This document shows positions 462 to 62,413 of a stretch of DNA of 64,000 nucleotides, one piece after another. Both the position numbers and the translations under genes were made by a program. The notes beneath the pieces are model-generated. The model did not search any database and was not told where the DNA came from. It worked only from the letters and a program-made list of their open reading frames with translations. Numbering within the stretch: the stretch's first letter is position 1; every line of letters begins with the position of its first letter. Location of the stretch: the NCBI RefSeq assembly GCF_003721565.1, contig NZ_RJJE01000017.1, forward strand, positions 1,538,636 to 1,602,635. Direction: 5' to 3'. Origin of the DNA: Rufibacter immobilis (GTDB lineage Bacteria > Bacteroidota > Bacteroidia > Cytophagales > Hymenobacteraceae).

Positions 462-500
462 TGTTTTGAGCCTAATTCAGGAAAAAGAGCCGCTAAACGG
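462..500. repeat. Dispersed palindromic element, copy 1 (degenerate)
   Basis: The right half is intact (GGAAAAAGAGCCGCTAAACGG); the left half is decayed but alignable (TTTTGAGCC). It lies in the divergent gap between the lolD-like gene and sucC, so it cannot act as a terminator for either gene. Confidence 0.65.
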
Positions 501-576
501 AACAGACCAGTTCATGCCGTAGCAACTGATTTTTGCCCCTGCTTACTATAAGGAGTCTTTCCGTTGGGTACCTACG

Positions 577-616
577 GCGTTTAGGGGCTCTTTTTCTGGA
601 AACAGGCCAAAACCGC
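577..616. repeat. Dispersed palindromic element, copy 2 (degenerate right half)
   Basis: An intact left half (GCGTTTAGGGGCTC, T5) is followed by a decayed right half (GGAAACAGGCCAAAACCGC). It is the second copy in the same 399-base divergent gap; apart from the two copies and the sucC promoter nothing else was seen there. Confidence 0.7.
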
Positions 617-710
617 TTCTTCTATTGTTCAGGCTAAACCGGAGGTTCGCTTAAAAACCGCTTTTAATTAGGCGCGCTGGGCACGGAACGGGCCACATCT
701 TGGCCGCTGC

Positions 711-741
711 TTTGAAAAGTTAGCCGTATACTGTACTTTCG
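711..741 (+). promoter_or_regulatory. Bacteroidota-type promoter of sucC
   Basis: TTTG at 711-714, a 19-base spacer, then TACTTTCG at 734-741. This fits the phylum consensus TTTG-N19-TAnnTTTG with one change. It predicts a start site near 745 and a leader of about 24 bases before the sucC ATG. Confidence 0.7.
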
Positions 742-768
742 TGCACCTAAAAACATCAACCTAACCTC

Positions 769-1965
769 ATGAATATACACGAGTACCAGGCGAAAGACAT
801 TCTGAAACGCTACGGCGTTAGAATTCAGGAAGGCATCGTGGCGGAAACCCCTGAAGAGGCGGTAGCCGCTGCCAAGCGTTTAACCGAGGAAACCGGCACT
901 GGCTGGCACGTAATCAAAGCCCAGATTCATGCGGGCGGCCGTGGTAAAGGCGGCGGGGTGAAATTGGCCAAAAACCTGGAGCAGGTGAAAGAACTGGCTG
1001 GTCAAATCATTGGCATGCAGCTGGTGACGCACCAGACCGGCCCCGAAGGCAAAAAAGTAAACAAAGTGCTTGTGGCGCAGGATGTATACTATCCCGGCGA
1101 CTCTGAGCCGAAAGAATTTTACCTGTCTATCCTGTTGGACAGAGCCAAAGGTCAGAACGTGATCATGGCCTCTACCGAGGGTGGTATGGACATTGAAGAA
1201 GTGGCGGAGCACACGCCAGACAAAATCTTCAAAGAGTGGATTGACCCAGCCGTTGGCCTGCAAGGCTTCCAGGCCCGTAAGATCGCGTTCGCGTTCGGGT
1301 TAGAGGGCGAGGCATTCAAGGAGATGGTGAAATTCGTGACCAACCTCTATAAGGCGTATCTGGACACTGACGCTTCTATGTTTGAGATCAACCCTGTGCT
1401 GAAGACCTCAGACAACAAAATCCTGGCTGTTGACGGGAAAGTGGACCTGGACGACAACGCCCTGTTCCGCCACAAAGACCTGGCCGACCTGCGCGACCTG
1501 GCCGAGGAAGATCCTTTGGAAGTGGAAGCCAGCAAAAGCAACCTGAACTACGTGAAGCTGGACGGTAACGTGGGTTGTATGGTGAACGGTGCCGGTCTGG
1601 CCATGGCCACCATGGACATCATCAAGCTTTCCGGCGGTGAGCCTGCTAACTTCCTGGACGTAGGAGGTGGAGCCAACGCGCAGACCGTAGAAGCCGGTTT
1701 CCGTCTCATTCTGCAAGACCCTAACGTGAAAGCCATCCTGATCAACATCTTCGGGGGTATTGTGCGTTGCGACCGCGTTGCCAACGGGGTGGTAGAGGCT
1801 TACAAGAACATAGGCACCATCAACGTTCCAATCATTGTGCGTCTGCAAGGTACCAACGCCGAGGAAGGTGCCCGTATCATTGACGAATCTGGCCTGAAAG
1901 TATTCTCTGCCGTGGCTCTGAAAGAAGCTGCCCAGAAAGTGAAAGACGTGCTGGCTACTGCCTAA
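769..1965 (+). CDS. sucC: Succinyl-CoA synthetase beta subunit (ADP-forming)
   Basis: 398 residues, the normal length for SucC. It begins [17 protein letters not shown], the hallmark start of the family, and continues with an ATP-grasp domain ([14 protein letters not shown]) and a C-terminal CoA-ligase domain containing [10 protein letters not shown]. With the alpha subunit SucD it interconverts succinyl-CoA and succinate with substrate-level phosphorylation in the TCA cycle. sucD is not adjacent: sucC stands alone between its own promoter and a strong terminator, so the two subunits must be expressed from separate loci. Split sucC/sucD loci are, as far as I know, common in Bacteroidota. No Shine-Dalgarno sequence precedes the ATG. 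Confidence 0.97.
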
Positions 1966-1988
1966 GTGTTTTTTGCTTATCAATAACT

Positions 1989-2027
1989 AAGAAGGCCTCT
2001 CCTACCACAGGAGAGGCCTTCTTGTTT
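1989..2027 (+). terminator. Rho-independent terminator of sucC
   Basis: Perfect 14-base arms (1989-2002 and 2010-2023), a 7-base loop, then a short T-rich stretch. It lies 24 bases after the sucC stop. It is unrelated to the dispersed palindrome. Confidence 0.85.
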
Positions 2028-2182
2028 TAGGCTTTTTTGGAAATCTGATGAAAAGGTAAGATATACTTGTTCCCTTTAATTTCAGATTTCTCTAGCAACA
2101 TAAGGTAAACCAAAGAAATTTAGTATTTTGATACGTGTTTTTCTACGGCAGCCAAAACCAGAAAGCGCATCATCTTTCCCTG

Positions 2183-3508: not shown

Positions 3509-3510
3509 CC

Positions 3511-4980: not shown

Positions 4981-4983
4981 CCT

Positions 4984-6063
4984 ATGTCAACCGTCTTACG
5001 CCAACACGCCGAACAGCAGTTTTCCCAGGAACTGGAAGAACTCAAAAAACAAGACCCACACAAAATCCCCCAAAACTGGCAGCTTTCGCCGCAGGCGGTG
5101 GTTTCTTACCTCATGGGCGACAAACTCAACAATGGGTTCCAGCTCACTCCAAAATACATTGGCAACCGGCGCCTCATGGAGATAGCCGTCGCGACCCTCA
5201 CCACCGACCGGGCCCTGCTGCTGTACGGCTTACCTGGCACAGCCAAATCCTGGGTTTCTGAGCATCTGGCCGCCGCCATTTCTGGAGATTCCACACTTTT
5301 AGTACAAGGCACGGCCGGAACCGGCGAGGAAGCCATACGGTACGGCTGGAACTACGCCCGCCTGCTCTCTACCGGCCCCACCCCAGAAGCCTTGGTGGAA
5401 ACACCCATGATGCGGGCCATGAAAGCAGGTAAAATTGCCCGGGTAGAGGAACTCACCCGCATTGGCTCAGATGTGCAGGATTCACTCATTACCATTCTCT
5501 CAGAAAAGTCATTGCCCGTTCCCGAGTTGAATACAGAAGTGCAGGCGGTCACCGGGTTCAACGTCATCGCCACGGCCAATAATCGGGATAAAGGCGTGAA
5601 CGAGTTGTCCAGTGCCTTAAAGCGGCGCTTCAATACCGTCATTTTACCCGTGCCAGATTCTATGGAAGAGGAAGTGGAGATTGTGCAGCAACGGGTAAAA
5701 TCCTTCAGTCAGCACATGGCGCTCCCCATAGAAAAACCCATCACCGAAGAGATTCGCCGCATTGTGACTATTTTCCGGGAGCTCCGGAGCGGGGTATCCA
5801 TGGACGGCAAAAACAAACTGAAGTCCCCTTCCGGTACGTTGAGCACCGCTGAGGCCATCTCTGTGATGAACAGTGGCCTGTCCCTTTCCCACCACTTCGG
5901 CGACGGAAGTTTAACCGCGCATGATTTGGCCTCTGGAGTGTTGGGGGCCGTGGTGAAAGACCCGGTACAGGATAAAATTGTGTGGCAGGAATACTTGGAA
6001 ACGGTGGTAAAACAGCGTGAGGGTTGGAAAGACCTATACCGTTCCTGCCGCGACATGATGTAA
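4984..6063 (+). CDS. MoxR-family AAA+ ATPase
   Basis: 359 residues. Walker A GLPGTAKS is at residues 82-89, a Walker B-equivalent segment is GKIARVEELTR, sensor 1 is VIATANNRD and the arginine-finger segment is LSSALKRRFN. A C-terminal lid (about 230-355) completes a MoxR/RavA-like module. Such ATPases act as chaperones that remodel or activate partner complexes and are usually encoded beside VWA proteins, as here. The second Walker B acidic residue sits in VEELTR rather than a classic DE pair. It is cytoplasmic, with 3 bases to the upstream gene and 6 to the downstream gene. Confidence 0.93.
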   Translation: MSTVLRQHAEQQFSQELEELKKQDPHKIPQNWQLSPQAVVSYLMGDKLNNGFQLTPKYIGNRRLMEIAVATLTTDRALLLYGLPGTAKSWVSEHLAAAISGDSTLLVQGTAGTGEEAIRYGWNYARLLSTGPTPEALVETPMMRAMKAGKIARVEELTRIGSDVQDSLITILSEKSLPVPELNTEVQAVTGFNVIATANNRDKGVNELSSALKRRFNTVILPVPDSMEEEVEIVQQRVKSFSQHMALPIEKPITEEIRRIVTIFRELRSGVSMDGKNKLKSPSGTLSTAEAISVMNSGLSLSHHFGDGSLTAHDLASGVLGAVVKDPVQDKIVWQEYLETVVKQREGWKDLYRSCRDMM

Positions 6064-6069
6064 GCAGGT

Positions 6070-9455: not shown

Positions 9456-9487
9456 AAAACGGGAACTATGACATTGCTCCCGTTTTT
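9456..9487. terminator. Terminator between the VWA operon and ohr (convergent)
   Basis: Arms AAAACGGGA (9456-9464) and TCCCGTTTT (9478-9486) enclose a 13-base loop. A-tract on the left and T-tract on the right make it usable from both strands, as expected between convergent genes. Confidence 0.75.
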
Positions 9488-9943: not shown

Positions 9944-10023
9944 GATGTCTTATTTTGTAGTAATGGCAATCTTCCTGTATAAACTGATTTCCTTCCGAAA
10001 TGTTAGCAGGGAGCCACACGGGA

Positions 10024-10066
10024 TTCGTATTTAGGGGCGCTTTTTCTAAAAACAGCAAAAAACGCC
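10024..10066. repeat. Dispersed palindromic element, copy 3 (degenerate)
   Basis: The left half is TTTAGGGGCGC plus T5; the right half is decayed (AAAAACAGCAAAAAACGCC). It lies in the divergent gap between ohr and tRNA-Arg. Confidence 0.6.
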
Positions 10067-10119
10067 AAACCCGCTTTCTTTCTTGGAAGGCATTTCCTAC
10101 ATTTGCCCACGCAAAAGCA

Positions 10120-14256: not shown

Positions 14257-14308
14257 ACGCCTGCGTTTAGGGGCTGTTTTTCGAAAAACAGCCCCTAAAC
14301 GCAGGCGT
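14257..14308. repeat. Dispersed palindromic element, copy 4 (perfect 52-base palindrome)
   Basis: All 52 bases are self-complementary, centred on TTTTTCGAAAAA. Outer arm extension ACGCCT/AGGCGT is specific to this locus. It lies 81 bases after the ankyrin stop, before the aldehyde dehydrogenase gene. Confidence 0.95.
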
Positions 14309-15852: not shown

Positions 15853-15877
15853 AGTTACCTCCAGCTGAATTATCTCT

Positions 15878-15919
15878 TGCGTTTAGGGGCTGTTTTTGGA
15901 AAAACGGCCCCTAAACGCA
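15878..15919. repeat. Dispersed palindromic element, copy 5
   Basis: Near-perfect, centre TTTTTGGAAAAA, one T/G pair in the stem (GGGGCTG against CGGCCCC). It lies in the convergent gap 26 bases after the aldehyde dehydrogenase stop. Confidence 0.93.
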
Positions 15920-16156
15920 TTTTCAGGCATCACCAACTTGATGAAAGAACGGGTACTACCTAGGGAAGATGGCTGGGACTGCATTGTGCTAAAGGGCTAT
16001 TTTGCTTCTCTGCTGCCCAGGAATTACAAATCTCCCTTCTCCACTGCTTTCAGATGGCAAAACTGAATGAGCCTTAGCTGTTCTCTTGGGCCGAGAACTC
16101 TAGGGTTCTGTTGCTCGGGCATTGCAAATACCCAAACATCGGCAGAGCCGCTACAG
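15920..16156. other. Gene-free remainder of the ALDH/NDH-2 convergent gap
   Basis: 237 bases after the palindromic element. No ORF with plausible composition, terminator or other structure was recognised. Confidence 0.5.
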
Positions 16157-18063: not shown

Positions 18064-18117
18064 GCGCCTTGCGTTTAGGGGCCGTTTTTGGAAAAACGGC
18101 CCCTAAACGCAAGGCGC
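18064..18117. repeat. Dispersed palindromic element, copy 6 (26-base perfect arms)
   Basis: A 54-base palindrome with only the central GG unpaired. The locus-specific extension GCGCCTT/AAGGCGC lengthens the core by 7 base pairs. Confidence 0.95.
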
Positions 18118-18550: not shown

Positions 18551-18677
18551 GGGTTTTCTTCTTTAGGGGTGAAACATTACCAGCTGTTATGACACAGCCT
18601 TTTACCTCCCATCTGTACGAGGCCTTCTGCCGTTTGTTCCTGCCTCGCCGTTGCACGCCCAATTAAACCGGAGAGCT

Positions 18678-18717
18678 AGTTTAAGCCTTTTTCCGGAAAA
18701 ACGGGCGCTAAACGCAA
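18678..18717. repeat. Dispersed palindromic element, copy 7 (degenerate)
   Basis: The right half GGGCGCTAAACGC is recognisable; the left half has lost bases (AGTTTAAGCC plus T5). Confidence 0.65.
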
Positions 18718-18766
18718 AAGCCCCCATGAAATAGTTACGCACTTGGTTGGGCGCGGCCGCGGAGAA

Positions 18767-18961: not shown

Positions 18962-19460
18962 CGGCTTTGCGTTTTAGTTAATGGCGCAACAGAAAACATT
19001 ACAAATAATTCCTGGTTTAAAATAATTGAGTACTAATGCGCCATTTTCCGTATTAACCACCTCACTACCACTCCTTTCGGACGAAATGTATAAGAACCCG
19101 TAGGTAAAAAAAGGCATTGGGAAACAGCGATGGCCATTTGCGTTTAGGGCCGCTTTTTCAAAAAAGAGCCCCTAAACAAAAGGCTCTTGAGCGGGAGGTT
19201 CCTGATGGAGCAGTATGTTCTTTTCACCGCCAGAACCGGCCAGAAATTATTCAGACGCAACGCCTATGCTGCAACGCGCTGCCTGGGAACTCGTTAAATA
19301 AAATTATTTAAAAAGTTAAGATGTGTTAATTCATGTGCAGACGAGAGATGAGACGGGCAGAGCAGCAGAATTATCAAATACTTCCTAAATTGTCGGCCAC
19401 AGACGGCGACAATGTCACTTTGGTTTCATCCTTAACACCAAGCTGCGGCACGGTTCTCCC
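18962..19460. other. 499-base divergent gap
   Basis: Holds the palindromic element at 19137-19182 and AT-rich flanks before each start. No gene or clear promoter box pair was recognised. Confidence 0.55.
19137..19182. repeat. Dispersed palindromic element, copy 8
   Basis: TTTGCGTTTAGGGCCGC, T5 and a right half AGAGCCCCTAAAC that has lost the terminal GC of the core. Confidence 0.8.
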
Positions 19461-22248: not shown

Positions 22249-22298
22249 CCTTTGCATTTAGCGGCCGTTTTTCCAAAAAGAGCCCCTAAACGCAAAGC
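22249..22298. repeat. Dispersed palindromic element, copy 9 (between cysC and cysQ)
   Basis: Core with variant left arm ATTTAGCGGCCG and right arm GAGCCCCTAAACGC; outer CTTT/AAAG pair. Three stem mismatches. Confidence 0.9.
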
Positions 22299-26930: not shown

Positions 26931-27293
26931 ATGACTACCCAAAAGAAATCAATCTTGATAGTGGATGACCAAAGCACCAACATCTTTGCGCTCTCCGCCG
27001 TGTTGATTCCCAGAGGCTACAGCTGTACCGCAGCCCTCACCGGGGAACAATGCCTCCAGATTTTAGATGAGCGTCCGCACTTAGACGCCATTCTCATGGA
27101 CTATAACATGCCCCAGATGAATGGGGTGGAAACCATCAAATACATCCGCCAGATTCCACAGTACAAGAAAACCAAGGTCATTGTCATTACCGCAGACGAC
27201 AGCCCCGGCCTCAAGCTGAAGAGTATCTCAGCCGGCGCCGACGGCTTCCTCACCAAACCCATTGACGTAGACCTGCTGGAAACCCTGTTTTAA
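26931..27293 (+). CDS. Single-domain response regulator
   Basis: 120 residues from MTTQKKSILIVDDQ; the open frame begins at 26904 but that would overlap the kinase stop. It has the acidic pair DD, phospho-Asp in AILMDYNMPQMNGVE, Thr in VIVITADD and Lys in FLTKPID. There is no output domain, so it acts through protein contacts, most simply as a phospho-acceptor for the upstream hybrid kinase. It starts 14 bases after the kinase stop. Confidence 0.92.
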   Translation: MTTQKKSILIVDDQSTNIFALSAVLIPRGYSCTAALTGEQCLQILDERPHLDAILMDYNMPQMNGVETIKYIRQIPQYKKTKVIVITADDSPGLKLKSISAGADGFLTKPIDVDLLETLF

Positions 27294-27309
27294 GCTTAAT
27301 TTCAGAAAA

Positions 27310-27687
27310 ATGGCCCCTAAACCCACGCTCCTCCTCGCGGATGATGACCCACGTAACATTTTCGCCTTAAAGGCTGTTCTACAACTCAAAGGCTACACCA
27401 TCTTAACCGCCCAGAACGGAAAGGAATGTCTGGATGTGCTGGCGAAGCAGCCCGAAGTGGATGTAGTACTCATGGACATGATGATGCCCGTCATGGATGG
27501 ATATGAGGCTACCCAGGCGTTGCGCCAACAGCCCCAGTTCCGTGATTTGCCTATTATTGCGGTTACCGCCCAGGCCATGCCCGGCGACAAAGAAAGATGC
27601 CTGGCCGCTGGGGCCACAGAGTACATAGCCAAACCCATTGACACAGACCAGCTGGAGGCTCTTATTCACCAGCACCTAACAAAATAG
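27310..27687 (+). CDS. Single-domain response regulator
   Basis: 125 residues. Acidic triplet DDD, phospho-Asp in VLMDMMMPVMDGYE, Thr in IIAVTAQAMPGD and Lys in YIAKPID; a closer match to the third receiver of the hybrid kinase than to its neighbour. There is no output domain. It sits 16 bases after the previous receiver and 7 bases before cheR. Confidence 0.93.
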   Translation: MAPKPTLLLADDDPRNIFALKAVLQLKGYTILTAQNGKECLDVLAKQPEVDVVLMDMMMPVMDGYEATQALRQQPQFRDLPIIAVTAQAMPGDKERCLAAGATEYIAKPIDTDQLEALIHQHLTK

Positions 27688-29108: not shown

Positions 29109-29162
29109 CCATCCTCTCTCGTGCCTTTAGAGTACCCATTTCCAGTAGGTATCTCCCATCAT

Positions 29163-29206
29163 CTGTTTAGAGCCTCTTTTCCGAAAAACGGCTCCTAAAC
29201 GTAAAC
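29163..29206. repeat. Dispersed palindromic element, copy 10
   Basis: Variant arms CTGTTTAGAGCC and GGCTCCTAAACG, centre TTTTCCGAAAAA. It follows the CheB stop by 54 bases and marks the end of the signalling operon. Confidence 0.85.
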
Positions 29207-34789: not shown

Positions 34790-34830
34790 TTTAGCCCTGA
34801 TTTTAAAAAAAGAGCCGCTAAACGCAAAAC
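34787..34830. repeat. Dispersed palindromic element, copy 11 (degenerate)
   Basis: The right half AGAGCCGCTAAACGC is intact; the left half has decayed (AGTTTAGCCCTGATTTT) and overlaps the A2M stop codon. Confidence 0.7.
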
Positions 34831-34909
34831 ATGAATAACTGACGAAAAAAGCTTGGTCTGAACTTCGGTTAAAAGCTTCTTGACAAGATAAACTGGGCTG
34901 AAATGACAT

Positions 34910-34955
34910 TTTGCGTTTAGGGGCTCTTTTTCGAAAAAGAGCCCCTAAACGCAAA
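34910..34955. repeat. Dispersed palindromic element, copy 12 (perfect 46-base palindrome)
   Basis: Every base is self-complementary around TTTTTCGAAAAA; outer TTT/AAA. Lies 45 bases before the pbpC start, in the A2M-pbpC gap. Confidence 0.95.
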
Positions 34956-34999
34956 GCCAAAAGTTCTGTCACTATACGATTAACAGCTTCTCCTTCTCT

Positions 35000-39499: not shown

Positions 39500-39555
39500 C
39501 ATTATTTCCGTTTAGCGGCCGTTTTTCCAAAAAAGGCTCCTAAACGGAAATAATG
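39500..39555. repeat. Dispersed palindromic element, copy 13 (extended arms)
   Basis: Core arms CCGTTTAG/CTAAACGG extended outward by the locus-specific pair CATTATTT/AAATAATG. It lies in the divergent gap between the TPR kinase and the M28 peptidase. Confidence 0.92.
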
Positions 39556-41140: not shown

Positions 41141-41202
41141 AAAACCCTGTTGCGTTTAGGGGCTGTTTTTGGAAAAACAGTCCCTAAACGCAACAGGGTT
41201 TT
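41141..41202. repeat. Dispersed palindromic element, copy 14 (longest arms, 62 bases)
   Basis: Core plus an 11-base locus-specific outer extension AAAACCCTGTT/AACAGGGTTTT; a G/T pair in the stem and an unpaired GG centre. It follows the M28 stop by 22 bases in a convergent gap. Confidence 0.95.
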
Positions 41203-42668: not shown

Positions 42669-43096
42669 AGTTACCCTGATTCTAAGAGAATTAATACGGT
42701 AGTTTTACAGAAGGTATAAGGGAGAAGACCTTTTTTCTCTCCCGTTCAAAGCTGGTTCACTTATTTTCTGCCCCGGGATTTTATGCCTCGGCCTCGCTGC
42801 TGGCACCCTCTTCCCCAAAACCAAACCCAAGACCAACCACGCGCAAGCCACTGGTATGAATGCGTTTAGGGGCTATTTTTCGAAAAACGGCCCCTAAACG
42901 CATTCAGGTGCAATGGGGAATTTCATCGCACCGGGCGCAGGCCGAAGTGTAAATGCACCCAATAATTTCAAGGCAGCTTTATGGATTCTGGCCCGGGGCG
43001 GCATCTTGTCTACAAAGAATAGAGGGGCTCAGACTTAAACGTTTCACAAATTGGCTATAATCTGTTTCTTTATGGCCGCTTACCAGACTCCGCCGC
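42669..43096. other. 428-base divergent gap between DUF421 pair and sigma factor
   Basis: It contains the palindromic element at 42857-42906. No ORF or convincing promoter box pair was found in the rest. Confidence 0.55.
42857..42906. repeat. Dispersed palindromic element, copy 15
   Basis: Outer extension TGAAT/ATTCA specific to the locus; centre TTTTTCGAAAAA; two non-Watson-Crick positions (CTA against CGG). It sits in a divergent promoter region, far from any gene end. Confidence 0.92.
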
Positions 43097-44974: not shown

Positions 44975-45022
44975 ATTTGCGTTTAGGGGCTATTTTTGGA
45001 AAAACGGCCTCTAAACGCAAAT
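44975..45022. repeat. Dispersed palindromic element, copy 16
   Basis: Outer ATTT/AAAT; centre TTTTTGGAAAAA; two G/T pairs in the stem read on the plus strand. It starts 5 bases after the HD-protein stop. Confidence 0.92.
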
Positions 45023-46112: not shown

Positions 46113-46168
46113 TTTCTGAACCGCTTATCTCTTCCTATTCTCACTTGGCCTTGCCTGGTGGAACCTTC

Positions 46169-46212
46169 TTCCGTTTAGGGGCTGTTTTTGGAAAAACGGC
46201 CCCTAAACGGAA
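46169..46212. repeat. Dispersed palindromic element, copy 17
   Basis: Arms TTCCGTTTAGGGG and its complement; centre TTTTTGGAAAAA; one T/G pair. It lies 57 bases after the oxidoreductase stop. The following 170 bases up to the uxaA promoter contain an imperfect inverted repeat (AGGAAGC at 46219, GCTTCCT at 46262) and no gene. Confidence 0.92.
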
Positions 46213-46385
46213 AACCTCAGGAAGCGGGAATGGAGTAGTACTGTGCTCGGCATTCCAGGGTGCTTCCTACTCGTTGTTTTATGAAAATGAAACCGTGGCT
46301 TGCGGTATTGGGGACTTCATTTTGTTTTTCATAGTGAGACAAAGAACTGGTTTGAATTTTCCTATTTCTGACAATTATTGATATA

Positions 46386-49236: not shown

Positions 49237-49249
49237 CAAGCTAATTGTC

Positions 49250-49295
49250 TTTGCGTTTAGGGGCTGTTTTTCCAAAAACGGCCCCTAAACGCAAA
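49250..49295. repeat. Dispersed palindromic element, copy 18
   Basis: Outer TTT/AAA, centre TTTTTCCAAAAA, one T/G pair. In the convergent gap between fbp and the LamG gene. Confidence 0.93.
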
Positions 49296-49301
49296 CAACG
49301 G

Positions 49302-49997: not shown

Positions 49998-50020
49998 AGG
50001 AGCAGGTGATGTAAAGTGGT

Positions 50021-50060
50021 TTCGGTTTAGGGGCTCTTTTTCCGAAAACGGGGGCAAAAC
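50021..50060. repeat. Dispersed palindromic element, copy 19 (degenerate right half)
   Basis: Left half TTCGGTTTAGGGGCTC plus T5; right half eroded (GAAAACGGGGGCAAAAC). It lies just upstream of the LamG gene start. Confidence 0.75.
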
Positions 50061-50070
50061 AGAGATTTGG

Positions 50071-50838: not shown

Positions 50839-50943
50839 ATCTCCTTAATAGAATATTAACGTGTGACAGGCTCCGGTTTCGGCCAGACTTGTTTCCTGAA
50901 GCAGGTTTGGCCTCTCACCAAAGGCAGATGCTGGACCAAATGC

Positions 50944-50984
50944 TGATTAGAGGCGCTTTTTCCGAAAAAAGCCCTAAACCGGAA
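50944..50984. repeat. Dispersed palindromic element, copy 20 (degenerate)
   Basis: GATTAGAGGCGC, T5, then AAAAAAGCCCTAAACCGG; shorter stem than the consensus. Lies between the CE12 gene and the VOC gene. Confidence 0.75.
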
Positions 50985-50990
50985 GCAAGA

Positions 50991-51389: not shown

Positions 51390-53374
51390 AGCGTAAGGTT
51401 CTTGATTCTGGCGTTGCTTCGGTTCACCAGATCTGGTAAATCATAAAATTGCAGCAGGCCCGGCACCACGTTGGAGTACATGTTCTGCTGAATGGGTTTT
51501 ACGAGATAAGTCTCAAAAGAGGAAATGGACTCTGCCACCTGCGCCTGCGTGATTCTCTCGTCCAGAAAGGCCGCATGGGTGAGCACGGGTCCGTAGAGGC
51601 CGTTGGCCCACACATGCACGGGCAGGTTCTTCCAGTGGGGCTGCGCGTGCAGGAAATCCAAGAGCGTAACGAGGTCCTGCACCCGCTGCCCCAGCAAAGG
51701 GCGTTTCAGGTGCAGGCTCAGCACGGCGTTCCGGTACTCGTGGGTCCAGTATTTGGGGTCGTTGAGTTTGGGATCATCCTGGGTTTCCCCTACGCCCCTC
51801 AGATCGGGCAACACTAACACGTTTCCGGCGGCCATTTCCCCTTGAATCAGGCTGTCGTTCTTGGCGGCCGCGGCTTTCCCTTTCTCCTCCAGCCTGATCA
51901 CCAGTTTGTGCGGCTTCCCGGTTAGAGGCCTGTAAATCAGCACCGGGAGGGGCAGTTCGCCCTGGCGCAGCAGAATCCGTTTCTCCAGCCGATAGTTTTT
52001 GCCCTGGCTTTCGCCGCTCAGCTCAGAGGAAACCGGCGAAGTGTTCGGCCTCCAGCCGATGACCTCCCGCACTTTGGCTTGCAGGGCCGCCGTGTTCTGT
52101 TCCGCCAGAAAAGCCTGCCGTTGCGGGGCCAGTGCCTTGAACTGCCGGTAAGTTACGTCTGGAATGGTGGTTTCCGGGGCAAAGGCGGTGTTGGCCTGCC
52201 CAGTGGTGGTGGCCAGCAGGTCTTTCTCGGGCAAGGTCCCTATTTCGCCTTCCTGCACGGGTTTCTCGTCCTGGTACAGCCATTTCCGGAACCAGGCCAC
52301 GGCTACCTCACGCTTAGGCCGGGAAATGCCGTGCCCGTCGGGCCAGGTGAAGAGTTTCAGTTGCTGGGGCTGGCCCAGCGTGGCGTATACTTTCTGAAGT
52401 TCCTGATATCCTTCCTGCACGCCCCGGTAATCCACGAAATCATGCTCACCGGCCAGCAGCAGCAGAGGCTTGGGGCCCGACATCAGGAGAAAATCTGCGA
52501 ACTCCAGCTGCTCCTCGCCGGGAATGAACTGGCAGCCGTCCGGAATGCCGCCCAACTCCAAGGAGCGCTCGCGCAGGGTGAAATAACTGCAGGGCGCGGC
52601 CACCTTGATGCGGATGTCATAAGCCATGAGGTAAGCGGTCTGGGTGCCGCCTCCGGAATTCCCAATGGCCCCGATGCGGTTTCGGTCTACCTCGGGCCTT
52701 GTCTCCAGATAATCTATCCCGCGCAGGTTGTCCCAGAGCATGTAAGCCGCCACGCTGCTGCCCACCAAGTTGGCGCCGGCGTTGAGTAAGGTGTGTTCCG
52801 TGGTGGAGCCTCTGGTCAGGGATTTGCCGGTTTTATCGGTTAGCTGCACGCGCTCGCCCTGCGAAAAGGGATCAATGGACAGCACCACAAACCCGTTGAG
52901 CGCGAACAGGCGGGCCGTTTTCTGGTAAGACTCCGTGGCTTTGGAAGTCATCTCGTGGCCGTTCAGGAGCACCACCGCCGGAAACGGGCCTTTGCCCTGC
53001 GGTACATACAGGTTGGCCGTGGCGTGGTGGTTGGGCCGGCTCTGGTAAATAACGTTCTCTATGCGGTACCCTTTCTGGTTTAGCTGCCGGGTGGTTTTGG
53101 CGTTTAGCGGCCCTTTTTCCGGAAACTGCCCCAAAACAGAAAGGTACTGCCGTTTCGCCTGAGCCTGGTATTCTTTGAGGGCCTGGGGCGAGGCCAGGGC
53201 TTTTTGCAGCCGCTCCCGGCGCTGGTCATACGCGGCGTGCAGGTCGCGCAGCAGGTAGGCGTTGAACGTGGTCTGGGCTTTCCAGGTGAGTGCCTGCGGC
53301 GAGGACTGGGCAAACGCCGCCGGGGCCAAACCCACCGCCATCAACCATGCGCAGAAAGTCTTTTTCAATCTCAT
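51386..53374 (-). CDS. Two-domain alpha/beta-hydrolase, acetylxylan esterase-like
   Basis: 662 residues from MRLKKTFCAWLMAVGLAPAAFAQ at 53374. The longer frame to 53476 begins MEKQPLNAN, which is the translated palindromic element, so it is a false start. The N-terminal domain is an acetylxylan-esterase/CE7-type alpha/beta-hydrolase: VVLLNGHEMTSKATE, SIDPFSQGERV, nucleophile elbow IGNSGGGTQTAY, LLAGEHDFVDYRG (Asp) and DGHGISRP (His). The C-terminal 230 residues look like a second, degenerate hydrolase domain (VLPDLRGVGETQD). Signal peptide predicts export. It probably deacetylates pectin or hemicellulose. Only the N-terminal domain has a complete-looking catalytic set. Confidence 0.85.
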   Translation of the reverse strand: MRLKKTFCAWLMAVGLAPAAFAQSSPQALTWKAQTTFNAYLLRDLHAAYDQRRERLQKALASPQALKEYQAQAKRQYLSVLGQFPEKGPLNAKTTRQLNQKGYRIENVIYQSRPNHHATANLYVPQGKGPFPAVVLLNGHEMTSKATESYQKTARLFALNGFVVLSIDPFSQGERVQLTDKTGKSLTRGSTTEHTLLNAGANLVGSSVAAYMLWDNLRGIDYLETRPEVDRNRIGAIGNSGGGTQTAYLMAYDIRIKVAAPCSYFTLRERSLELGGIPDGCQFIPGEEQLEFADFLLMSGPKPLLLLAGEHDFVDYRGVQEGYQELQKVYATLGQPQQLKLFTWPDGHGISRPKREVAVAWFRKWLYQDEKPVQEGEIGTLPEKDLLATTTGQANTAFAPETTIPDVTYRQFKALAPQRQAFLAEQNTAALQAKVREVIGWRPNTSPVSSELSGESQGKNYRLEKRILLRQGELPLPVLIYRPLTGKPHKLVIRLEEKGKAAAAKNDSLIQGEMAAGNVLVLPDLRGVGETQDDPKLNDPKYWTHEYRNAVLSLHLKRPLLGQRVQDLVTLLDFLHAQPHWKNLPVHVWANGLYGPVLTHAAFLDERITQAQVAESISSFETYLVKPIQQNMYSNVVPGLLQFYDLPDLVNRSNARIKNLTL

Positions 53375-53450
53375 TGGGTGTACTCGCATCAAGATTCGCT
53401 TTTGCTGCCTTTTTCCGGTTCCGTACTTCGGCAACGGCCGGAAACTAAAA

Positions 53451-53496
53451 TTTGCGTTTAAGGGCTGTTTTTCCAAAAAGAGCCCCTAAACGCAAA
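53451..53496. repeat. Dispersed palindromic element, copy 21
   Basis: TTTGCGTTTAAGGGCTG and right arm GAGCCCCTAAACGCAAA, centre TTTTTCCAAAAA. It lies upstream of the esterase start and 4 bases after the CE12 stop. Confidence 0.9.
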
Positions 53497-53499
53497 CCT

Positions 53500-54300: not shown

Positions 54301-54358
54301 CTTGCATATATCTTCTCAAGCAGTATCAGATCGGCCGCAGGGCCACTCTATTCCTATT

Positions 54359-56125: not shown

Positions 56126-56154
56126 ACGCTCTTTTATTCCCTCTTTGGGTTACT

Positions 56155-56194
56155 GCGTTTAGGGGCTCTTTTTGGTAAAACAGCTCCTAAACGT
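56155..56194. repeat. Dispersed palindromic element, copy 22
   Basis: GCGTTTAGGGGCTC, T5, then GGTAAAACAGCTCCTAAACG. Lies 30 bases upstream of the GH28 start. Confidence 0.88.
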
Positions 56195-56317
56195 CTGAAT
56201 TGTTTTGTTACTTATCTCACTCACCTCCGGCGAGTATTGGCTACTTTCGGTCCCTGCCCGAGTTTCTGGTAAGCAAATCAAGGGGCCGGGAGCCGATCTT
56301 AGTTCACAAAGTGTTGC

Positions 56318-56361
56318 TTCAGTTTAGGGCCTCTTTTTCGAAAAACAGCCCCTAAACGGAA
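56318..56361. repeat. Dispersed palindromic element, copy 23
   Basis: TTCAGTTTAGGGCCTC and right arm CAGCCCCTAAACGGAA, centre TTTTTCGAAAAA. It is the second copy in the same 245-base gap, 10 bases after the GH43 stop; nothing else was seen in that gap. Confidence 0.9.
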
Positions 56362-56370
56362 ACGGCCGGC

Positions 56371-58032: not shown

Positions 58033-58104
58033 TCAGGTTCTTTCATGCTGCTTCTCCAGAGTTGCGGCACGTGGCCGTTGCCTGAGAAGCCTTCCTTATA
58101 TCTT

Positions 58105-58148
58105 GGTTCTGGTTTGGGCCTTTTTCTGGAAAAAGAGCCGCTAAACGC
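58105..58148. repeat. Dispersed palindromic element, copy 24 (degenerate left half)
   Basis: Left half GGTTTGGGCC plus T5, right half AAAAAGAGCCGCTAAACGC intact. It abuts the stop of the pectate lyase gene. Confidence 0.8.
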
Positions 58149-59848
58149 TATTCATGGACCAGCGCAATCCGTTTGACTACCCGTTCTTTGCCCATCTGGA
58201 GGGAGTACAGGTACAGTCCGGCGCCTAGTTTTCTGCCGCTGGCATCGGTGCCGTTCCATTCCACTTTGTGCGCCCCCGCCCCCATAGCCGCGTGCCGCAC
58301 CGTGGTAATCTCCCTTCCCGCCAAGTCCAGAATTTTAAGCGACACCACAGCTTTCTGAGCCGAAGTAAACGTGAACGTGACGTTGCGGGAGAAGGGATTG
58401 GGGTAAGCGCCGCTGGCAAAAACATCTACCTCTTCTTTAGCGGATGTGACCAAAGCCGTGGGCGACTGGCCGTTCAGGTATTCTTCCAGATTGGTGTAGC
58501 CGTTGTTATTGGCGTCTGCGTTTCTGTCTGCGGGGTTGTTGGGGTTGAGGCCGTACTGGGTTTCCCAGGCATCGGGCATGCCGTCATGGTCAGTGTCTGC
58601 GGGGGCGGGCAGGCTTTCCAGCACGGGCCAGCCGCCTACCGTCGCCTGCGTGTCAATAATGCCTTTCTTCTCCCCGAACGCGCCGCCGTACGTGGCCGTG
58701 CCGGTGCGCACTTCCCGGATGATTCTGGTATCTACCGGATCGCGTTTGAGGCTGGCCCCGGCCTGCGCCAGCACGGCCTCATAGGCTTCCACGGCGGTAT
58801 GGTCGGTCTGCATGTGGTAGGCGATGGGCGCGGTGAGTTTTACCTGAGCTCTCTTCTCTATGGGGAGGTTACTGGCGTAGTCTACTCCGCCGGCCCAATT
58901 GTCCTGGGTGACGGCGGCGTTGCCCTCCACGTGGTTTCCGTTGATGTAGAAAGTGCCATAGCCTGCCCCATACGCGGGATCTGCCTCAAAAGACACCTGC
59001 ACAATGCGTTTGTTTTTGCTGCCGGGCGTGGCCGGACCGGGTTTGTAGTAGTTGTTCACAAGATTGTATTGCCCGTTTTCGCCGCCGTAGGCGCTGTTGT
59101 CTGCCCAGTTGTAGAGCACGTTGTTCCGGAAATCTACATGCTCTTTGGGATAGGTACCGCCATTAATGCCGGAGCGACCACCGCCGTTGAACCGCGGGTT
59201 GCGGCTGCTGTGGTGCGCCAGCAGGTTGTGGTGGAACGAGGCCTGGTCTCCGCCCCAGATGCCGCCGTAGCCGTGGTTCCCTTTGTCATGCACTGATTTG
59301 TACAGGCTCTCGCTCAAAATACACCACTGCATGGTGAAGTTCCTGTTGAGGTAAAAGCTGGCCGTCTCATCTACCGACCAACTCATGGAGCAGTGGTCTA
59401 TAATGATGTTCTGGTGATTACGGCCCCAGATGGCATCATTCTCCACCTTGGCCTCATCGCCTAGCCTGAACCGCAGGTACCGGATAATCACGTTGTCGGC
59501 GTCAAGGGTTACGGTTTGGTTACTCAGGCAGATGCCGTCGCCGGGGGCGGTCTGGCCGGCAATGGTGAGGTCGCCGTTTTTGATGGAAAGCGGAGACAGC
59601 AGTTTGATGGTACCGCTCACCCTGAACACAATGGTTCTGGCCCCGGAGGCCAACACCGCGCTTCTAAAGCTTCCGGGCCCGGAGTCATTCAGGTTGGTGA
59701 CTTCTATGACAGTACCGCCCCGACCGCCGGTGGTGAAACGTCCAAACCCTTCGGCCCCGGGAAAAGCCAGCTGCTGCGCAGACGCAATGGGTGAACTCAG
59801 CGCCAACAGCATCAGCAGCGACATAAGATGCGGTAGATGTTTTTTCAT
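58148..59848 (-). CDS. Pectate lyase (PL1-like) with type IX secretion C-terminal domain
   Basis: 566 residues. Signal peptide ending ALSSPIASA. Beta-helix lyase domain beginning LAFPGAEGFGRFTTGGRGGTV with NIIIDHCSMSWSVDET and the SRNPRFNGGG segment typical of bacterial pectate lyases; Asp/Arg of the active site are in these blocks. A calcium-binding motif (DTDHDGMPDAWETQYGLNP) and a type IX secretion C-terminal domain (YPNPFSRNVTFTF ... GLYLYSLQ) follow. It is secreted across the outer membrane and cuts polygalacturonate by beta-elimination. A paralogue at 63377 lacks the C-terminal domain. Confidence 0.94.
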   Translation of the reverse strand: MKKHLPHLMSLLMLLALSSPIASAQQLAFPGAEGFGRFTTGGRGGTVIEVTNLNDSGPGSFRSAVLASGARTIVFRVSGTIKLLSPLSIKNGDLTIAGQTAPGDGICLSNQTVTLDADNVIIRYLRFRLGDEAKVENDAIWGRNHQNIIIDHCSMSWSVDETASFYLNRNFTMQWCILSESLYKSVHDKGNHGYGGIWGGDQASFHHNLLAHHSSRNPRFNGGGRSGINGGTYPKEHVDFRNNVLYNWADNSAYGGENGQYNLVNNYYKPGPATPGSKNKRIVQVSFEADPAYGAGYGTFYINGNHVEGNAAVTQDNWAGGVDYASNLPIEKRAQVKLTAPIAYHMQTDHTAVEAYEAVLAQAGASLKRDPVDTRIIREVRTGTATYGGAFGEKKGIIDTQATVGGWPVLESLPAPADTDHDGMPDAWETQYGLNPNNPADRNADANNNGYTNLEEYLNGQSPTALVTSAKEEVDVFASGAYPNPFSRNVTFTFTSAQKAVVSLKILDLAGREITTVRHAAMGAGAHKVEWNGTDASGRKLGAGLYLYSLQMGKERVVKRIALVHE

Positions 59849-60032
59849 ACTATTCAGTTGGTCTTACCTGGTCTTTCCTTGTTCATCTGTTCTAGCTACT
59901 CTTCCAGATTTCTAATCCCTAACAGCTGAATCAAACTGTTCTTTCATTGTAGCTTCAGTTTTTGCTACTCTTCACGCTTTCATCATCCCCCTACCCCCTT
60001 CAAAGGAGGACGTGGAATGTGTTGCCTTTTCT

Positions 60033-60078
60033 TTTGCGTTTAGGGGCTGTTTTTGGAAAAAGAGCCGCTAAACGCAAA
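60033..60078. repeat. Dispersed palindromic element, copy 25
   Basis: TTTGCGTTTAGGGGCTG, T5, GG, A5, then GAGCCGCTAAACGCAAA; the two arms belong to different subtypes, giving mismatches at two stem positions. It starts 7 bases after the CE8 stop. The other 180 bases of the gap hold nothing recognised. Confidence 0.9.
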
Positions 60079-60084
60079 TGCTGG

Positions 60085-61074
60085 TTATTTCGCCGCCTGA
60101 GGGGTCTGCTTTTCGGCTTTGGGGTCCCAGTCCTGGAAGATGTTCTTCAGGGTGTATTGCTGGGCTTCCTGGGTGGTAAGCTGTTTAGACCACGGCACCC
60201 GGTTCTTAGAAGCGGCTCCCGGACCGGTAGAATTGTACTCGGCGTAGAAGGTGGTTTTCTCGGCCTCGGGCTTGCTCCAGTTGTGCCAGCCCTCGGGCCT
60301 GATGTGTTTGCCCAGATAAGTGTTAATGAAAACCGTTTTGGCGAAAGGTCTCCAGGGGCGGCCCAGATAGAAAGAATTCTGGGGAGCATCGCCGGTGAGG
60401 CGGCAGTTGAGGAACACGAAGCCATAGGGAGCGCCTTCCAACGTGGAGGCCGCCGTGATGTAGTTGCCGCCTTTCTTGCAGAAGATCTCGCAGTTCTCAA
60501 ACACCGCCGTAGACCACCCGAAGATGAAGTCGGTGGTGCCTTCTATGTAGCAGTTCTGGTAGTACTGGCGGCTCTTCTCGCCGTGTGGGTACAGGGTATC
60601 CTGAAAGCCCAGGAACCGACAGTTTCTGAAGATGACCTTGTCACCGTCTACCCGCACGGCCACCGCCTGCCCCACCGGGCCCGCGCTGTTCTCAAAGGTG
60701 AGGTTCTCCGCCGTGAAATCATCGCCATAGACAAAGAAACTGGTAGAGCCGGTGGTGCCCATCTCCTCGCCAAACCTGTTCTTCTTAGCGGCATAATCAT
60801 CATAGGTGAGAATGGTTTTCTTCACGTCCTGGCCCACCAGGCGCACGTTGGTTTTGGTGGGCGGCAGTGTGATTTTCTCTTTGTAGACCCCGTTCTTGAT
60901 GTAGATGCTGGTCTGGTTCTTCCGGAAATCCGGTACGGCGTTGATGGCTTCCTGCACGGTTCTGAACTGGCCGCTGCCGTCTTTGGCTACCACAAAATCA
61001 TAGGTCTGCGCGCGCGCCTGCCCCAACAAAAGGCTGAACCACACCAGCAGAAGAAGCGATTTTCTCAATGTCAT
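60085..61074 (-). CDS. Pectinesterase (CE8)
   Basis: 329 residues. Signal peptide (LLLLVWFSLLLGQARA). CE8 blocks: YIKNGVYKEKITLP, SAGPVGQAVAVRVDGD, CRFLGFQDTLYPHG with the catalytic Asp, CYIEGTTDFIFGWSTAVFE with the second Asp, and LGRPWRPFAKTVF with the Arg/Trp. It demethylates pectin. It is a close paralogue of the gene at 62421, with long stretches of near-identical DNA, and lies 8 bases downstream of the GH105 gene on the same strand. Confidence 0.95.
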   Translation of the reverse strand: MTLRKSLLLLVWFSLLLGQARAQTYDFVVAKDGSGQFRTVQEAINAVPDFRKNQTSIYIKNGVYKEKITLPPTKTNVRLVGQDVKKTILTYDDYAAKKNRFGEEMGTTGSTSFFVYGDDFTAENLTFENSAGPVGQAVAVRVDGDKVIFRNCRFLGFQDTLYPHGEKSRQYYQNCYIEGTTDFIFGWSTAVFENCEIFCKKGGNYITAASTLEGAPYGFVFLNCRLTGDAPQNSFYLGRPWRPFAKTVFINTYLGKHIRPEGWHNWSKPEAEKTTFYAEYNSTGPGAASKNRVPWSKQLTTQEAQQYTLKNIFQDWDPKAEKQTPQAAK

Positions 61075-61082
61075 ACCCTCGC

Positions 61083-62315
61083 TTATTTTGCCGCCTGCGC
61101 GGTGCCCATTTCCTCAAATTCCAGCGAAGCCATGATGAACGGCGACACCGCCTTGGGGTCATTGTCACGGCGCTCCTCGTTGATGTAGTACTCATAGCTT
61201 CCCGACCGGTACGGCGTGCCGCCCAAACCCGCCACGGCGCACACCTGCGTGATACTGATGGTGCCATCCGGGTTCTGTTTGATCAGGTGGTTAAGCAGGC
61301 CAGTATAGCCTTTGCGGGCGTTGTCCAGATATTTTTTTTCTATGTAGCCTTTCTTGGCAGCCTTCACCAGAAAGTACGTGAACATGCTGGAGGCCGAACC
61401 TTCCAGGTAATTCCCTTCGCGGCCGCCCTGGTCCACCACTTGCCACCACAGTCCGGTTTTGGGGTCCTGGTACTGGGCAATGGCCCCGGCCATTTTCTGC
61501 GTGATCTTCAGGATGTCGTCTCTTCTGGGGTGGTTCTGCGGGAAGAAATCCAGCACATCCACCAAAGCCATGGCGTACCAACCCATGGCGCGGCCCCATA
61601 CGTTCGGCGAAAGCCCAGTCTGTTTATCGGCCCAGGGTTGTTCGCGTTTTTCGTCCCAGCCATGGTAGAACAGGTTCTTTTCTTTTACATAGGTGTGCTT
61701 ATCCACCAGCGTGATTTGCAGGGCCACATCGTCATAGTTGGCGGGCTCATGGTAGGTAGCGGCATATTGCGTAAGGAACGGCGAGGCCATGTACAGACCG
61801 TCTAGCCACATCTGGTGCGGATAGATTTTCTTGTGCCAGAAACCGCCCTCAGAAGTTCTGGGGTGGGTGCGCATCTGGTCACGCAGTTCGTCTAAAGCGA
61901 TTTTATATTTCTGCTGACCGGTTTCCTGGTGCAGGAAAATCAGGAACTTGCCGGGGTTCACGCGGTCAATGTTGTAGTCGCTTTTCTTGTAGGTCTTGAT
62001 CTTGCCGTCCTGGGTAATCATGGTATCGGCGAAGGCCTGGATGTAGGTGAGGTACTTCTGGTCACGGGTGCGTTTCCAGACCCGCTCCAGCGCACTGGCG
62101 AAGAGGCCTTGGGTATAGTCCCATTTGGGTTCTTTCCGGAAGTCGATCATCCAGCCCTGCGGACTGCGTTTCATCTCAGAGTCGGCCATCCAGACGGAAT
62201 AGGGTTTGCCAGCCGGCGAGAGGGCAGCCGTGCTTCCGGCGGGGGTTTGGCCAGAGCGGCAAGCCGAAAACAGCAAGGCCAGCAGGGTGAGAATCAGTGA
62301 GGTACGCTTCTTCAT
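61083..62315 (-). CDS. GH105/GH88-like unsaturated (rhamno)galacturonyl hydrolase
   Basis: 410 residues from MKKRTSLILTLLALLFSAC at 62315; the frame extends to 62339 (MKRLPQEV) without signal features. Lipobox Cys in LLFSAC. The alpha6/alpha6 barrel has the family marks YTQGLFASALERVW, DGLYMASPFLTQYA (catalytic Asp), VWGRAMGWYAMALVDVL and EGSASSMFTYFLVKAA. It removes the 4,5-unsaturated uronic residue left by the pectate lyases. It sits between two CE8 genes; the stop is 8 bases before the downstream CE8 start. Confidence 0.94.
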   Translation of the reverse strand: MKKRTSLILTLLALLFSACRSGQTPAGSTAALSPAGKPYSVWMADSEMKRSPQGWMIDFRKEPKWDYTQGLFASALERVWKRTRDQKYLTYIQAFADTMITQDGKIKTYKKSDYNIDRVNPGKFLIFLHQETGQQKYKIALDELRDQMRTHPRTSEGGFWHKKIYPHQMWLDGLYMASPFLTQYAATYHEPANYDDVALQITLVDKHTYVKEKNLFYHGWDEKREQPWADKQTGLSPNVWGRAMGWYAMALVDVLDFFPQNHPRRDDILKITQKMAGAIAQYQDPKTGLWWQVVDQGGREGNYLEGSASSMFTYFLVKAAKKGYIEKKYLDNARKGYTGLLNHLIKQNPDGTISITQVCAVAGLGGTPYRSGSYEYYINEERRDNDPKAVSPFIMASLEFEEMGTAQAAK

Positions 62316-62375
62316 AACTTCTTGGGGTAATCGTTTCAAAGTGCACGGCTCCCTCTGGCAGATGAACCATGTTTT

Positions 62376-62413
62376 CGTTTAGGGGCCGTTTTTCCGAAAA
62401 GAGCCGCTAAACG
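62376..62413. repeat. Dispersed palindromic element, copy 26
   Basis: CGTTTAGGGGCCG, T5, CC, GAAAAGAGCCGCTAAACG: right arm of the AGAGCCGC subtype. It is in the gap between the second CE8 gene and the GH105 gene. Confidence 0.88.

Follow-up and report, generated by a model that had tools for sequence, protein, structure and literature searches.

The genome of Rufibacter immobilis contains a dense family of dispersed palindromes, the reality of which is confirmed here, and comparison with its relatives suggests fixed sites read by a putative factor rather than jumping DNA or ordinary terminators. Our preferred explanation, held tentatively and at somewhat less than even confidence, is that they are ancient, position-fixed pairs of inverted half-sites, read as DNA by a putative dimeric protein. 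For dispersed palindromes of bacteria, the usual explanation is a mobile REP-like element or a terminator; in this family, species largely agree in position across the regions compared, while the spelling shifts genome-wide in separate lineages. At least one test goes against each of the REP/RAYT, MITE, terminator, and uptake-sequence readings.

Structure, number and placement of the palindromes

In the window (the whole stretch of 64 kb that was analysed), the initial annotation had described about 26 copies recurring roughly every 2.5 kb; the family proved real, and the figures shifted to 28 palindromes of ~40-46 bp (two-arm weight matrix, >14 bits) with an average spacing of ~2.3 kb and a median of 1.8 kb. 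The arm GCGTTTAGGGGCTG with ≤3 mismatches gave 44 matches in the window (mean 8.3 and maximum 17 in 100 shuffles), many of which are paired arms with a centre of 0-2 bp, and a 46-mer search requiring at least 28 matching letters recovered 27 copies. Another count of 29 included a match at 9476 that overlaps an ordinary hairpin, and its exclusion gives 28. The proposal that the family is dense and genome-wide was upheld by 422 copies of a strict pattern in the genome (0 for the reversed-pattern control) and by 220 copies detected with the two-arm matrix in a 464-kb sample (0 in 400 kb of shuffled sequence), from which ~2,250 copies per genome are extrapolated.

The core arm, the T5 and A5 runs, and the centres CG, GG, and CC are present as first described, together with further centre spellings. 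The consensus is symmetric, with CGTTTAG in both arms and neither a GTAG nor a CGTC tag, and each site consists of two inverted half-sites of ~18-20 bp around a short centre, mostly non-complementary. Its information content in R. immobilis is ~23 bits per arm and 46 per site, whereas, by simple arithmetic, ~11 bits would suffice to mark ~2,250 sites in 4.77 Mb; such an excess usually points to copying and counts against the putative protein-site reading. The suggestion that the family might be undescribed is in line with an Rfam search of the window at the gathering score, which returned only a tRNA, and with literature searches, among whose listed papers no description of it appeared. The palindrome was also unmatched in plasmids (blastn, E up to 0.001) and in viral contigs (exact pattern, zero mismatches).

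Only 7 of the 220 sampled copies lie inside called genes. A copy is present in 42 of 46 convergent and 22 of 51 divergent gaps (5.1 versus 1.5 per kb), counts that omit gaps <60 bp (5 of 89 such gaps hold a copy) and that, like the terminator counts below, are approximate because genes and terminators were called by simple rules. Tandem gaps also hold copies, so the occurrence in all three kinds of gap was borne out. Two tight operons had been considered free of copies, which is true for the one at 2.2-9.4 kb; the other (23.3-29.1 kb) contains a weak element at 27281..27328.

Two of the elements in the window are hybrids (one ancestral-spelling arm and one new-spelling arm) located upstream of sucC, at 457..504 in the divergent gap and at 573..620, 172 bp before the gene. 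Further hybrids were found at 10023..10070 (second arm weak), 18672..18719, 58105..58152, and 53096..53143, the last within a called gene ~220 bp from its 5' end. Perfect palindromes are present at 34909..34956 and, with flank extension, at 18067..18114. Elements without such particular features occupy 15875..15922, 19136..19183, 22250..22297, 29159..29206, 42858..42905, 44975..45022, 53450..53497, 56151..56198, 56316..56363, and 60032..60079.

Positions and spelling across the genus

The check in related genera that had been recommended gave a clear distribution: a generic pattern is matched by all 16 genomes of the genus and by none of 104 genomes from five sister genera. In samples from each of the 16 species, its own matrix detected 2.9-6.8 copies per 10 kb; the estimate per genome is 1,300 to 3,900 copies. 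The count was 0 in 344 kb of DNA taken from sister genera and other families, in which the union of the 16 matrices gives 5 chance matches >18 bits (1 in 400 kb of shuffled sequence). As the family is absent from sister genera, its seeding probably took place near the genus root. The architecture is common to all 16 genomes, several of which have their own uniform spelling, so that the question shifts from the identity of a transposon to what keeps and respells fixed sites.

In the regions compared, positions are largely shared across species that are ~78-87% identical, with one genome per species and the nearest compared pair 85-87% identical. Between the congeners G207 and G204, an element is found in both members of 26 intervals, in the first only of 2, in the second only of 1, and in neither of 6, and one-to-one copies are offset by a median of 3.5 bp, compared with 80 bp at random, although random placement as a null takes no account of the preference for gene ends, so that part of the agreement may reflect shared preference. 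For R. immobilis and its sister species G203, the corresponding numbers in two regions are 14, 0, 2, and 6 (p = 4e-4), while the window alone (10, 0, 2, and 1) gives no significant agreement in presence (p = 0.23). Matching G203 gaps also have elements for the copies at 46167..46214, 50019..50066 (hybrid), 50939..50986 (degenerate), and 62371..62418, and the hybrid at 34782..34829 resembles the same place in G203 in its left arm and flank, its right arm having the new spelling. Before sucC, an element lies at 151-195 bp in 10 of the 15 species that could be judged with their own matrices, 3 of these 10 being weak (17-18 bits). In G200, the element match near sucC sits after the gene, not before it. 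At 4.7 copies per 10 kb, the density in R. immobilis is not raised but falls among the values of its relatives; considering this and the largely shared positions, the genome probably acquired its uniform spelling in place.

The two arms appear to change nearly independently. New/new, mixed, and old/old copies number 94, 79, and 23, compared with 91, 85, and 20 expected under independence (28 of 224 copies are unclassed, and old/old copies may be undercounted owing to lower scores). Arm scores are uncorrelated in R. immobilis (0.03), whereas those of G205 correlate (0.50). Among 122 copies with both arms >20 bits, positions 4, 5, 10, 11, and 12 pair above chance and positions 16 and 17 do not; since positions 10 and 11 are spelling-diagnostic, their pairing argues against full independence of the arms. 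Variants within arms mostly do not form linked haplotypes (in new arms, linkage exceeds z = 4 for 11 of 105 position pairs, all within six positions). The majority spelling of the new arm differs between hybrids and new/new copies, and a subfamily history is thus possible. In tandem hybrids, the new arm lies upstream in 31 copies and downstream in 23, which reveals no clear polarity.

Half-sites occur almost exclusively as pairs: for 289 of 293 strong arms the partner scores above the 99.9th percentile of random sequence, and 352 of the 354 strong half-sites belong to a palindrome, the other 2 being single sites in intergenic DNA, while no gene contains a single one. This is why we rejected the idea that the palindromes are akin to DNA uptake sequences (DUS), arranged as inverted pairs and spelled in species dialects. 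The DUS of Neisseriaceae as outlined in PMC3630211 do offer a parallel, with inverted pairs and with dialects that track phylogeny, but they are, in the same outline, common inside genes, and we consider an uptake function very improbable.

Mobility, homogenization and transcript ends

The palindromes could be REP/REPIN- or MITE-like elements that were moved by a Y1/RAYT or other transposase, amplified in the genus, and are now mostly immobile. High copy number, uniform arms, intergenic placement, the lack of the family in sister genera, and an information content beyond what the number of sites needs, which favours copying, would all fit; moreover, Y1 genes (PF01797) are present in 18 of 19 relatives, and the main Y1 gene of R. 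immobilis is flanked on both sides by elements ~280 bp off. However, elements within 400 bp on both sides were observed at 3 of 15 Y1 loci (a subset of the Y1 places found, with the main R. immobilis gene among the 3) versus 77 of 361 background genes, and the Y1 gene is preceded by palindromes of its own that differ from the element. Y1 homologues occur in 43 of 60 genomes of the family, including genera without the element, but were not found in G199, which carries elements. A match beside a Y1 gene in a sister genus (L149) turned out to be that gene's own palindrome, scored by chance. The absence of a RAYT gene had been noted for the window; Y1/RAYT genes do exist elsewhere in the genome, but the 15 Y1 loci compared show no link to the palindrome, and RAYT-driven mobility was rejected on this ground. 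Direct repeats of 3-8 bp show no clear excess at eight boundaries in 127 copies, consistent with the lack of flanking target duplication reported at first, and a modest excess of 2-bp repeats appears at several boundaries (e.g., 18 versus 8.9). Together with shared positions, unraised density in the uniform R. immobilis genome, and mostly unlinked arm variants, these results do not support the suggested currently mobile hairpin and make an origin by transposition unlikely.

Alternatively, the family could be old and passive, and its palindromes could have been homogenized where they lie, through short ectopic gene conversion or template switching from copy to copy and between the two arms of a copy. 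Such a process would account for respelling in place, nearly independent arms, flank-extended stems in unique sequence, and high information content. The tracts would measure ~20 bp, which is very short for conversion of the RecA type, the mostly unlinked variants within arms count against it, and it leaves the maintained positions unexplained; we regard this process as quite unlikely.

With respect to transcription, the palindrome may form an RNA hairpin at transcript ends, either a two-way terminator or a 3'-end protector whose apical part drifts in a lineage-specific manner. Copies are densest between convergent genes, very stable folds were obtained for five well-formed copies (z -7 to -11), and outer positions and flanks pair above chance, the flanks well above it. 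The M28 gene that precedes the convergent-gap element at 41148..41195 (extended stem and T tail) is followed by a long hairpin of like build in 9 of the 10 species with a full-length gene match, with stems whose letters differ between species except that G197 and G207 are nearly alike. An extended stem and T tail are also present in the perfect palindrome at 14259..14306. Nevertheless, divergent gaps are occupied too, including that at 39504..39551, where unique flanks lengthen the stem, and the copy in a convergent gap of 65 bp (49249..49296) is without a T tail. Among gene ends that have an element, an element hairpin with T tail is present in 10 of 62 convergent and 14 of 96 tandem cases, TTTT follows within 10 nt downstream in just 12 of 85 tandem copies, and a general U tract on the transcribed strand was not found.

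Arm complementarity gives z 6.3 for new/new copies, z 2.0 for old/old ones, and z 0.1 to 4.1 for congeners. In the 79 mixed-arm copies, out of 196 classed, it does not exceed that of shuffled arms (z -1.4), the one mixed-arm copy that was folded is no better than its own shuffles (z -0.03), and a GU-over-CA bias on the mRNA strand is absent (63 versus 77). Separate canonical terminators lie beside elements at 37 of 84 ends in R. immobilis, 22 of 38 in G207/G204, and 4 of 14 in G203, compared with 14 of 46 gene ends in sister genera and 8 of 24 in other families; they are not depleted beside elements, and replacement of terminators by the palindrome was rejected. The judgement that a simple terminator role is insufficient therefore stands, and a general role in RNA 3' ends, proposed at the same time, is weakened. 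Inner positions are fully matched in 13 of 26 flank-extended copies versus 16 of 68 others (p = 0.023), which, with the complementary flanks, implies that hairpin formation matters for a subset, and a minority of copies resemble terminators of the hairpin type as well. As an explanation of the family as a whole, an RNA hairpin seems improbable.

A putative protein-read site system and its relation to known systems

We return to the preferred reading of position-fixed half-site pairs. The sites were probably seeded near the genus root, judging from their absence in sister genera, and selection would since have kept them in place, as their shared positions in otherwise scrambled gaps suggest. 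A dimeric protein may read them as double-stranded DNA, one half-site per subunit, putatively where transcription units end or meet, for example as boundary, topology, or nucleoid sites. If the specificity of this protein drifts in a lineage, sites would be respelled in place, arm by arm. The more specific possibility of a genus-wide system of 1-4 thousand inverted half-site pairs per genome, respelled with a drifting, putative genus-specific dimeric factor, is put forward as a rather doubtful one. If a protein reads the sites, they would represent a new kind of abundant chromosomal site in which coevolution of factor and site is visible; if not, they would represent very short dispersed sequences that undergo concerted evolution in place. 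The genus is cultured, and both outcomes are open to experiment.

Among known systems, nucleoid and domain sites such as matS/MatP and BIME-gyrase sites are likewise dispersed palindromes read as DNA (putatively so in Rufibacter), but the Rufibacter family has far more copies, is restricted to a genus, and is respelled between lineages. Intrinsic bidirectional terminators share stable hairpins at convergent gene ends, and some copies resemble true terminators, whereas most palindromes have no U tract, pairing is poor in many, and divergent gaps are also occupied. Neisseriaceae DUS comprise thousands of short sites with species-specific spelling, often as inverted pairs near terminators, as outlined in PMC3630211; the Rufibacter sites differ in being ~40 bp long, almost never single, and never alone in genes. 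With REP/REPIN elements, the family shares short intergenic palindromes in high copy number (>100). According to PMC3733652, REP super-families are defined by an unpaired tag (GTAG or CGTC) at one end, and CGTC repeats occur in Bacteroidetes, apparently without a dedicated transposase; according to PMC3686654, related strains have different REP classes next to syntenic RAYTs. In contrast, the Rufibacter palindrome is symmetric, with no unpaired end tag and no association with Y1/RAYT genes at the loci compared, and its positions are common to species while its arms are respelled nearly independently.

Copy number and distribution in the genus

The element is an intergenic palindrome of ~40-46 bp, with two inverted half-sites (arms) around a short centre. 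The initial annotation had described such palindromes in the Rufibacter immobilis window, and they were recovered there: the core arm with up to three mismatches has 44 matches against 8.3 expected, mostly arranged as inverted pairs, and a two-arm weight matrix detects 28 copies above 14 bits. Two operons had been considered free of the element, which holds for 2.2-9.4 kb but not for 23.3-29.1 kb, where one weak copy lies. A T-tract hairpin of the ordinary kind at window positions 9456-9486, which has a weak element score (9476), was excluded from the count. The copies are not confined to the window, which lies on contig C10 of the 4.77-Mb genome; a strict pattern yields 422 copies genome-wide (control 0). 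In a 464-kb sample comprising the window and 400 kb of contig C1, 220 copies exceed 14 bits with the two-arm matrix, and shuffled sequence (400 kb) has no hit; the extrapolated genome total is ~2,250 copies.

The strict R. immobilis spelling is nearly private (0-6 copies per genome in 15 congeners, none in 193 other genomes of the same order). From coordinate matches, at least four of these congeners could be assigned: R. sediminis H-1 (G203), R. latericius (G196), Rufibacter sp. XAAS-G3-1 (G202), and Sabulibacter ruber (G204). Counting in related genera, as had been proposed, was carried out with patterns and weight matrices and separated the congeneric genomes, all positive, from five other genera. 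Congener palindromes have the same architecture as those of R. immobilis, and a generic pattern allowing up to three mismatches matches every genome of the genus (16/16, with 2 to 150 copies each; control 0) but 0/104 genomes from the five other genera. Using species-own weight matrices, all 16 species show 2.9-6.8 copies per 10 kb (40-464 kb samples), or by extrapolation 1,300 to 3,850 copies per genome, and 344 kb of sister-genus and other-family DNA contains none.

Scored over arm positions 4-22, arm uniformity is 23 bits in R. immobilis, 16.5 bits in R. sediminis H-1, 21-26 bits in five other congeners (G194, G198, G205, G199, and G208, the last two having one spelling in common), and 12-19 bits in the remaining nine species, whose spelling is looser and broadly similar among them. 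In a single-gene tree (sucC, 19 genomes without G200, good support on only 4 of 16 inner branches), R. immobilis is sister to R. sediminis (97/96), and G198, G205, G199, and G208 form one group (86/96). Judged from this placement, uniform spellings had separate origins in at least two lineages.

Placement relative to genes, terminators and orthologous gaps

According to our own simple gene calls, on which the gap counts rest, 7 of the 220 copies in the 464-kb sample are inside genes, and copies are present in 42/46 convergent, 102/173 tandem, and 22/51 divergent gaps of at least 60 bp and in 5/89 shorter gaps (5.1, 3.0, and 1.5 copies per kb in convergent, tandem, and divergent gaps, 0.02 in genes). 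For 95 of 136 copies in tandem gaps, the upstream stop is the closer side. The initial annotation had reported all three gap types and considered a simple terminator role insufficient; both statements agree with these counts, the latter also with the finding of TTTT within 10 nt downstream of only 12/85 tandem copies. Of 62 element-bearing convergent gene ends (gaps of at least 100 bp), 28 carry a separate canonical terminator, 10 a T-tailed stem formed by the element itself, and 27 neither, these classes being overlapping. Separate canonical terminators accompany elements at 37/84 ends in R. immobilis, 22/38 in G207 (a congener) and Sabulibacter ruber, and 4/14 in R. sediminis, and for comparison canonical terminators were found at 14/46 ends in sister genera and 8/24 in other families. 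They often abut the element, the T tract entering the outer arm (TTTTCTG-TTTAGG), for example at L032:13966-14040 (a sampled locus) and in other convergent gaps; the distance is 16 bp or less in 30/51 measured cases. No GU preference was found among mRNA-strand mismatches (63 GU vs 77 CA), and folding is very stable in five well-formed copies but not in the one hybrid folded.

Presence or absence at matching gaps, examined between species, revealed largely shared occupancy. Intervals in six region pairs were scored as occupied in both/first only/second only/neither, and one-to-one median offsets were compared with random placement, a null that ignores the preference for gene ends and thus overstates the contrast: G207-S. 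ruber, 26/2/1/6, 3.5 vs 80 bp (12 intervals); window-R. sediminis, 10/0/2/1 (p = 0.23), 12.5 vs 69 bp (6 intervals); window-G207, 3/0/0/2, 4 vs 32 bp (1 interval); window-S. ruber, 9/2/2/5, 10.5 vs 56 bp (6 intervals); R. sediminis-G207, 10/1/1/7, 22.5 vs 83 bp (4 intervals); and R. sediminis-S. ruber, 18/2/1/8, 11 vs 59 bp (6 intervals). A second R. immobilis region compared with R. sediminis has four intervals occupied in both and five in neither, and pooling it with the window gives 14/0/2/6 (p = 4e-4). Among the gaps listed, such genomes are otherwise barely alignable. With species-own matrices, an element was detected 151-195 bp upstream of sucC in 10 of 15 judgeable species (loci L185-L200; seven at 24 bits or more, three weak at 17-18 bits) and 74-85 bp downstream of it in 7/16 species, being absent from the latter position in R. 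immobilis. In R. immobilis (window region 369-768), the upstream element sits in a divergent gap.

Y1/RAYT genes and mobility

The proposed search for RAYT genes, which are associated with REP palindromes, detected one Y1/RAYT-like gene (PF01797, 181 aa) in R. immobilis, and a query with this protein added a second open frame (33% identity) and three further pieces, apparently one broken copy. A link to the element did not emerge: elements are located within 400 bp on both sides at 3/15 checked Y1 loci (the main R. immobilis gene among them) vs 77/361 genes. Y1 homologues are found in 43/60 genomes of the family, some of them from genera that lack the element, and G199 has no Y1 match although elements are present. 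The Y1/RAYT-like gene in the dnaE-trxA gap (L032:12450-13200; R. immobilis C1:452450-453200) has its own upstream palindromes, of CCGGATTTACTAATCCGG and GGGATTTATCAATCCC types, and similar ones precede the syntenic R. sediminis Y1 gene and sister-genus Y1 genes; these are perhaps the real cognate sites of that RAYT family. Consistent with the reported absence of flanking target duplication, direct repeats of 3-8 bp are not clearly evident at the copies, and 2-bp repeats are in modest excess. A plasmid search and an exact-pattern search of viral contigs gave no element match.

Arm structure and a putative dimeric factor

Arms were classed as new or ancestral (old) spelling, giving 94 new/new, 79 mixed, and 23 old/old copies (28 of 224 unclassed) compared with 91, 85, and 20 if arms were independent, and the two arm scores of a copy are uncorrelated (0.03). 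Among 122 copies with both arms above 20 bits, positions 16 and 17 pair no more than chance; arm independence is incomplete, because positions 4, 5, 10, 11, and 12 pair above chance. Relative to shuffled arms, new/new copies show raised pairing (z 6.3, mostly at outer positions) and mixed copies do not (z -1.4), with z of 2.0 in old/old copies and 0.1 to 4.1 in congener copies. Linkage at z>4 is seen for 11/105 position pairs in new arms, never spanning more than six positions. Half-sites above 18 bits lie within palindromes in 352/354 cases, and 289/293 of those above 25 bits face a second arm whose score exceeds the 99.9th percentile for random sequence.

Inner positions are fully matched more often where the stem extends into the flanks (13/26 vs 16/68), and therefore a subset of copies are true long hairpins. 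In gaps of all three orientations, some copies remain perfectly palindromic for 7-17 bp past the core, where the flanking sequence is otherwise unique; hairpin selection or template-switch correction could have made these extensions. The central dinucleotide in R. immobilis is often GG or CC. Self-complementary centres are under-represented (9/122 vs 45 expected), perhaps owing to palindrome instability or polarity.

Considering that positions are shared, density is unraised, arms are nearly independent, and variants are mostly unlinked, we argue that respelling happens in place at fixed sites, a pattern that half-sites read by a putative dimeric DNA-binding factor would match more closely than would transposition, an RNA hairpin, or an uptake sequence. 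Copying would explain the high information content more simply, each R. immobilis site holding ~46 bits vs ~11 needed by our arithmetic. This information content speaks against the dimeric-factor reading, as do the positions at which the arms partly pair and the fact that the factor itself is only postulated. The accessible parts of the open-licence literature matches listed (including PMC3733652, PMC3116915, PMC5217627, PMC3630211, and PMC3686654) contained no description of the palindrome family. By our calculation on the half-site matrix, the two arms place their GGGGC blocks at a spacing of ~21 bp and their GTTT blocks at ~32 bp, close to two and three helical turns, the geometry that putative one-face binding would require.
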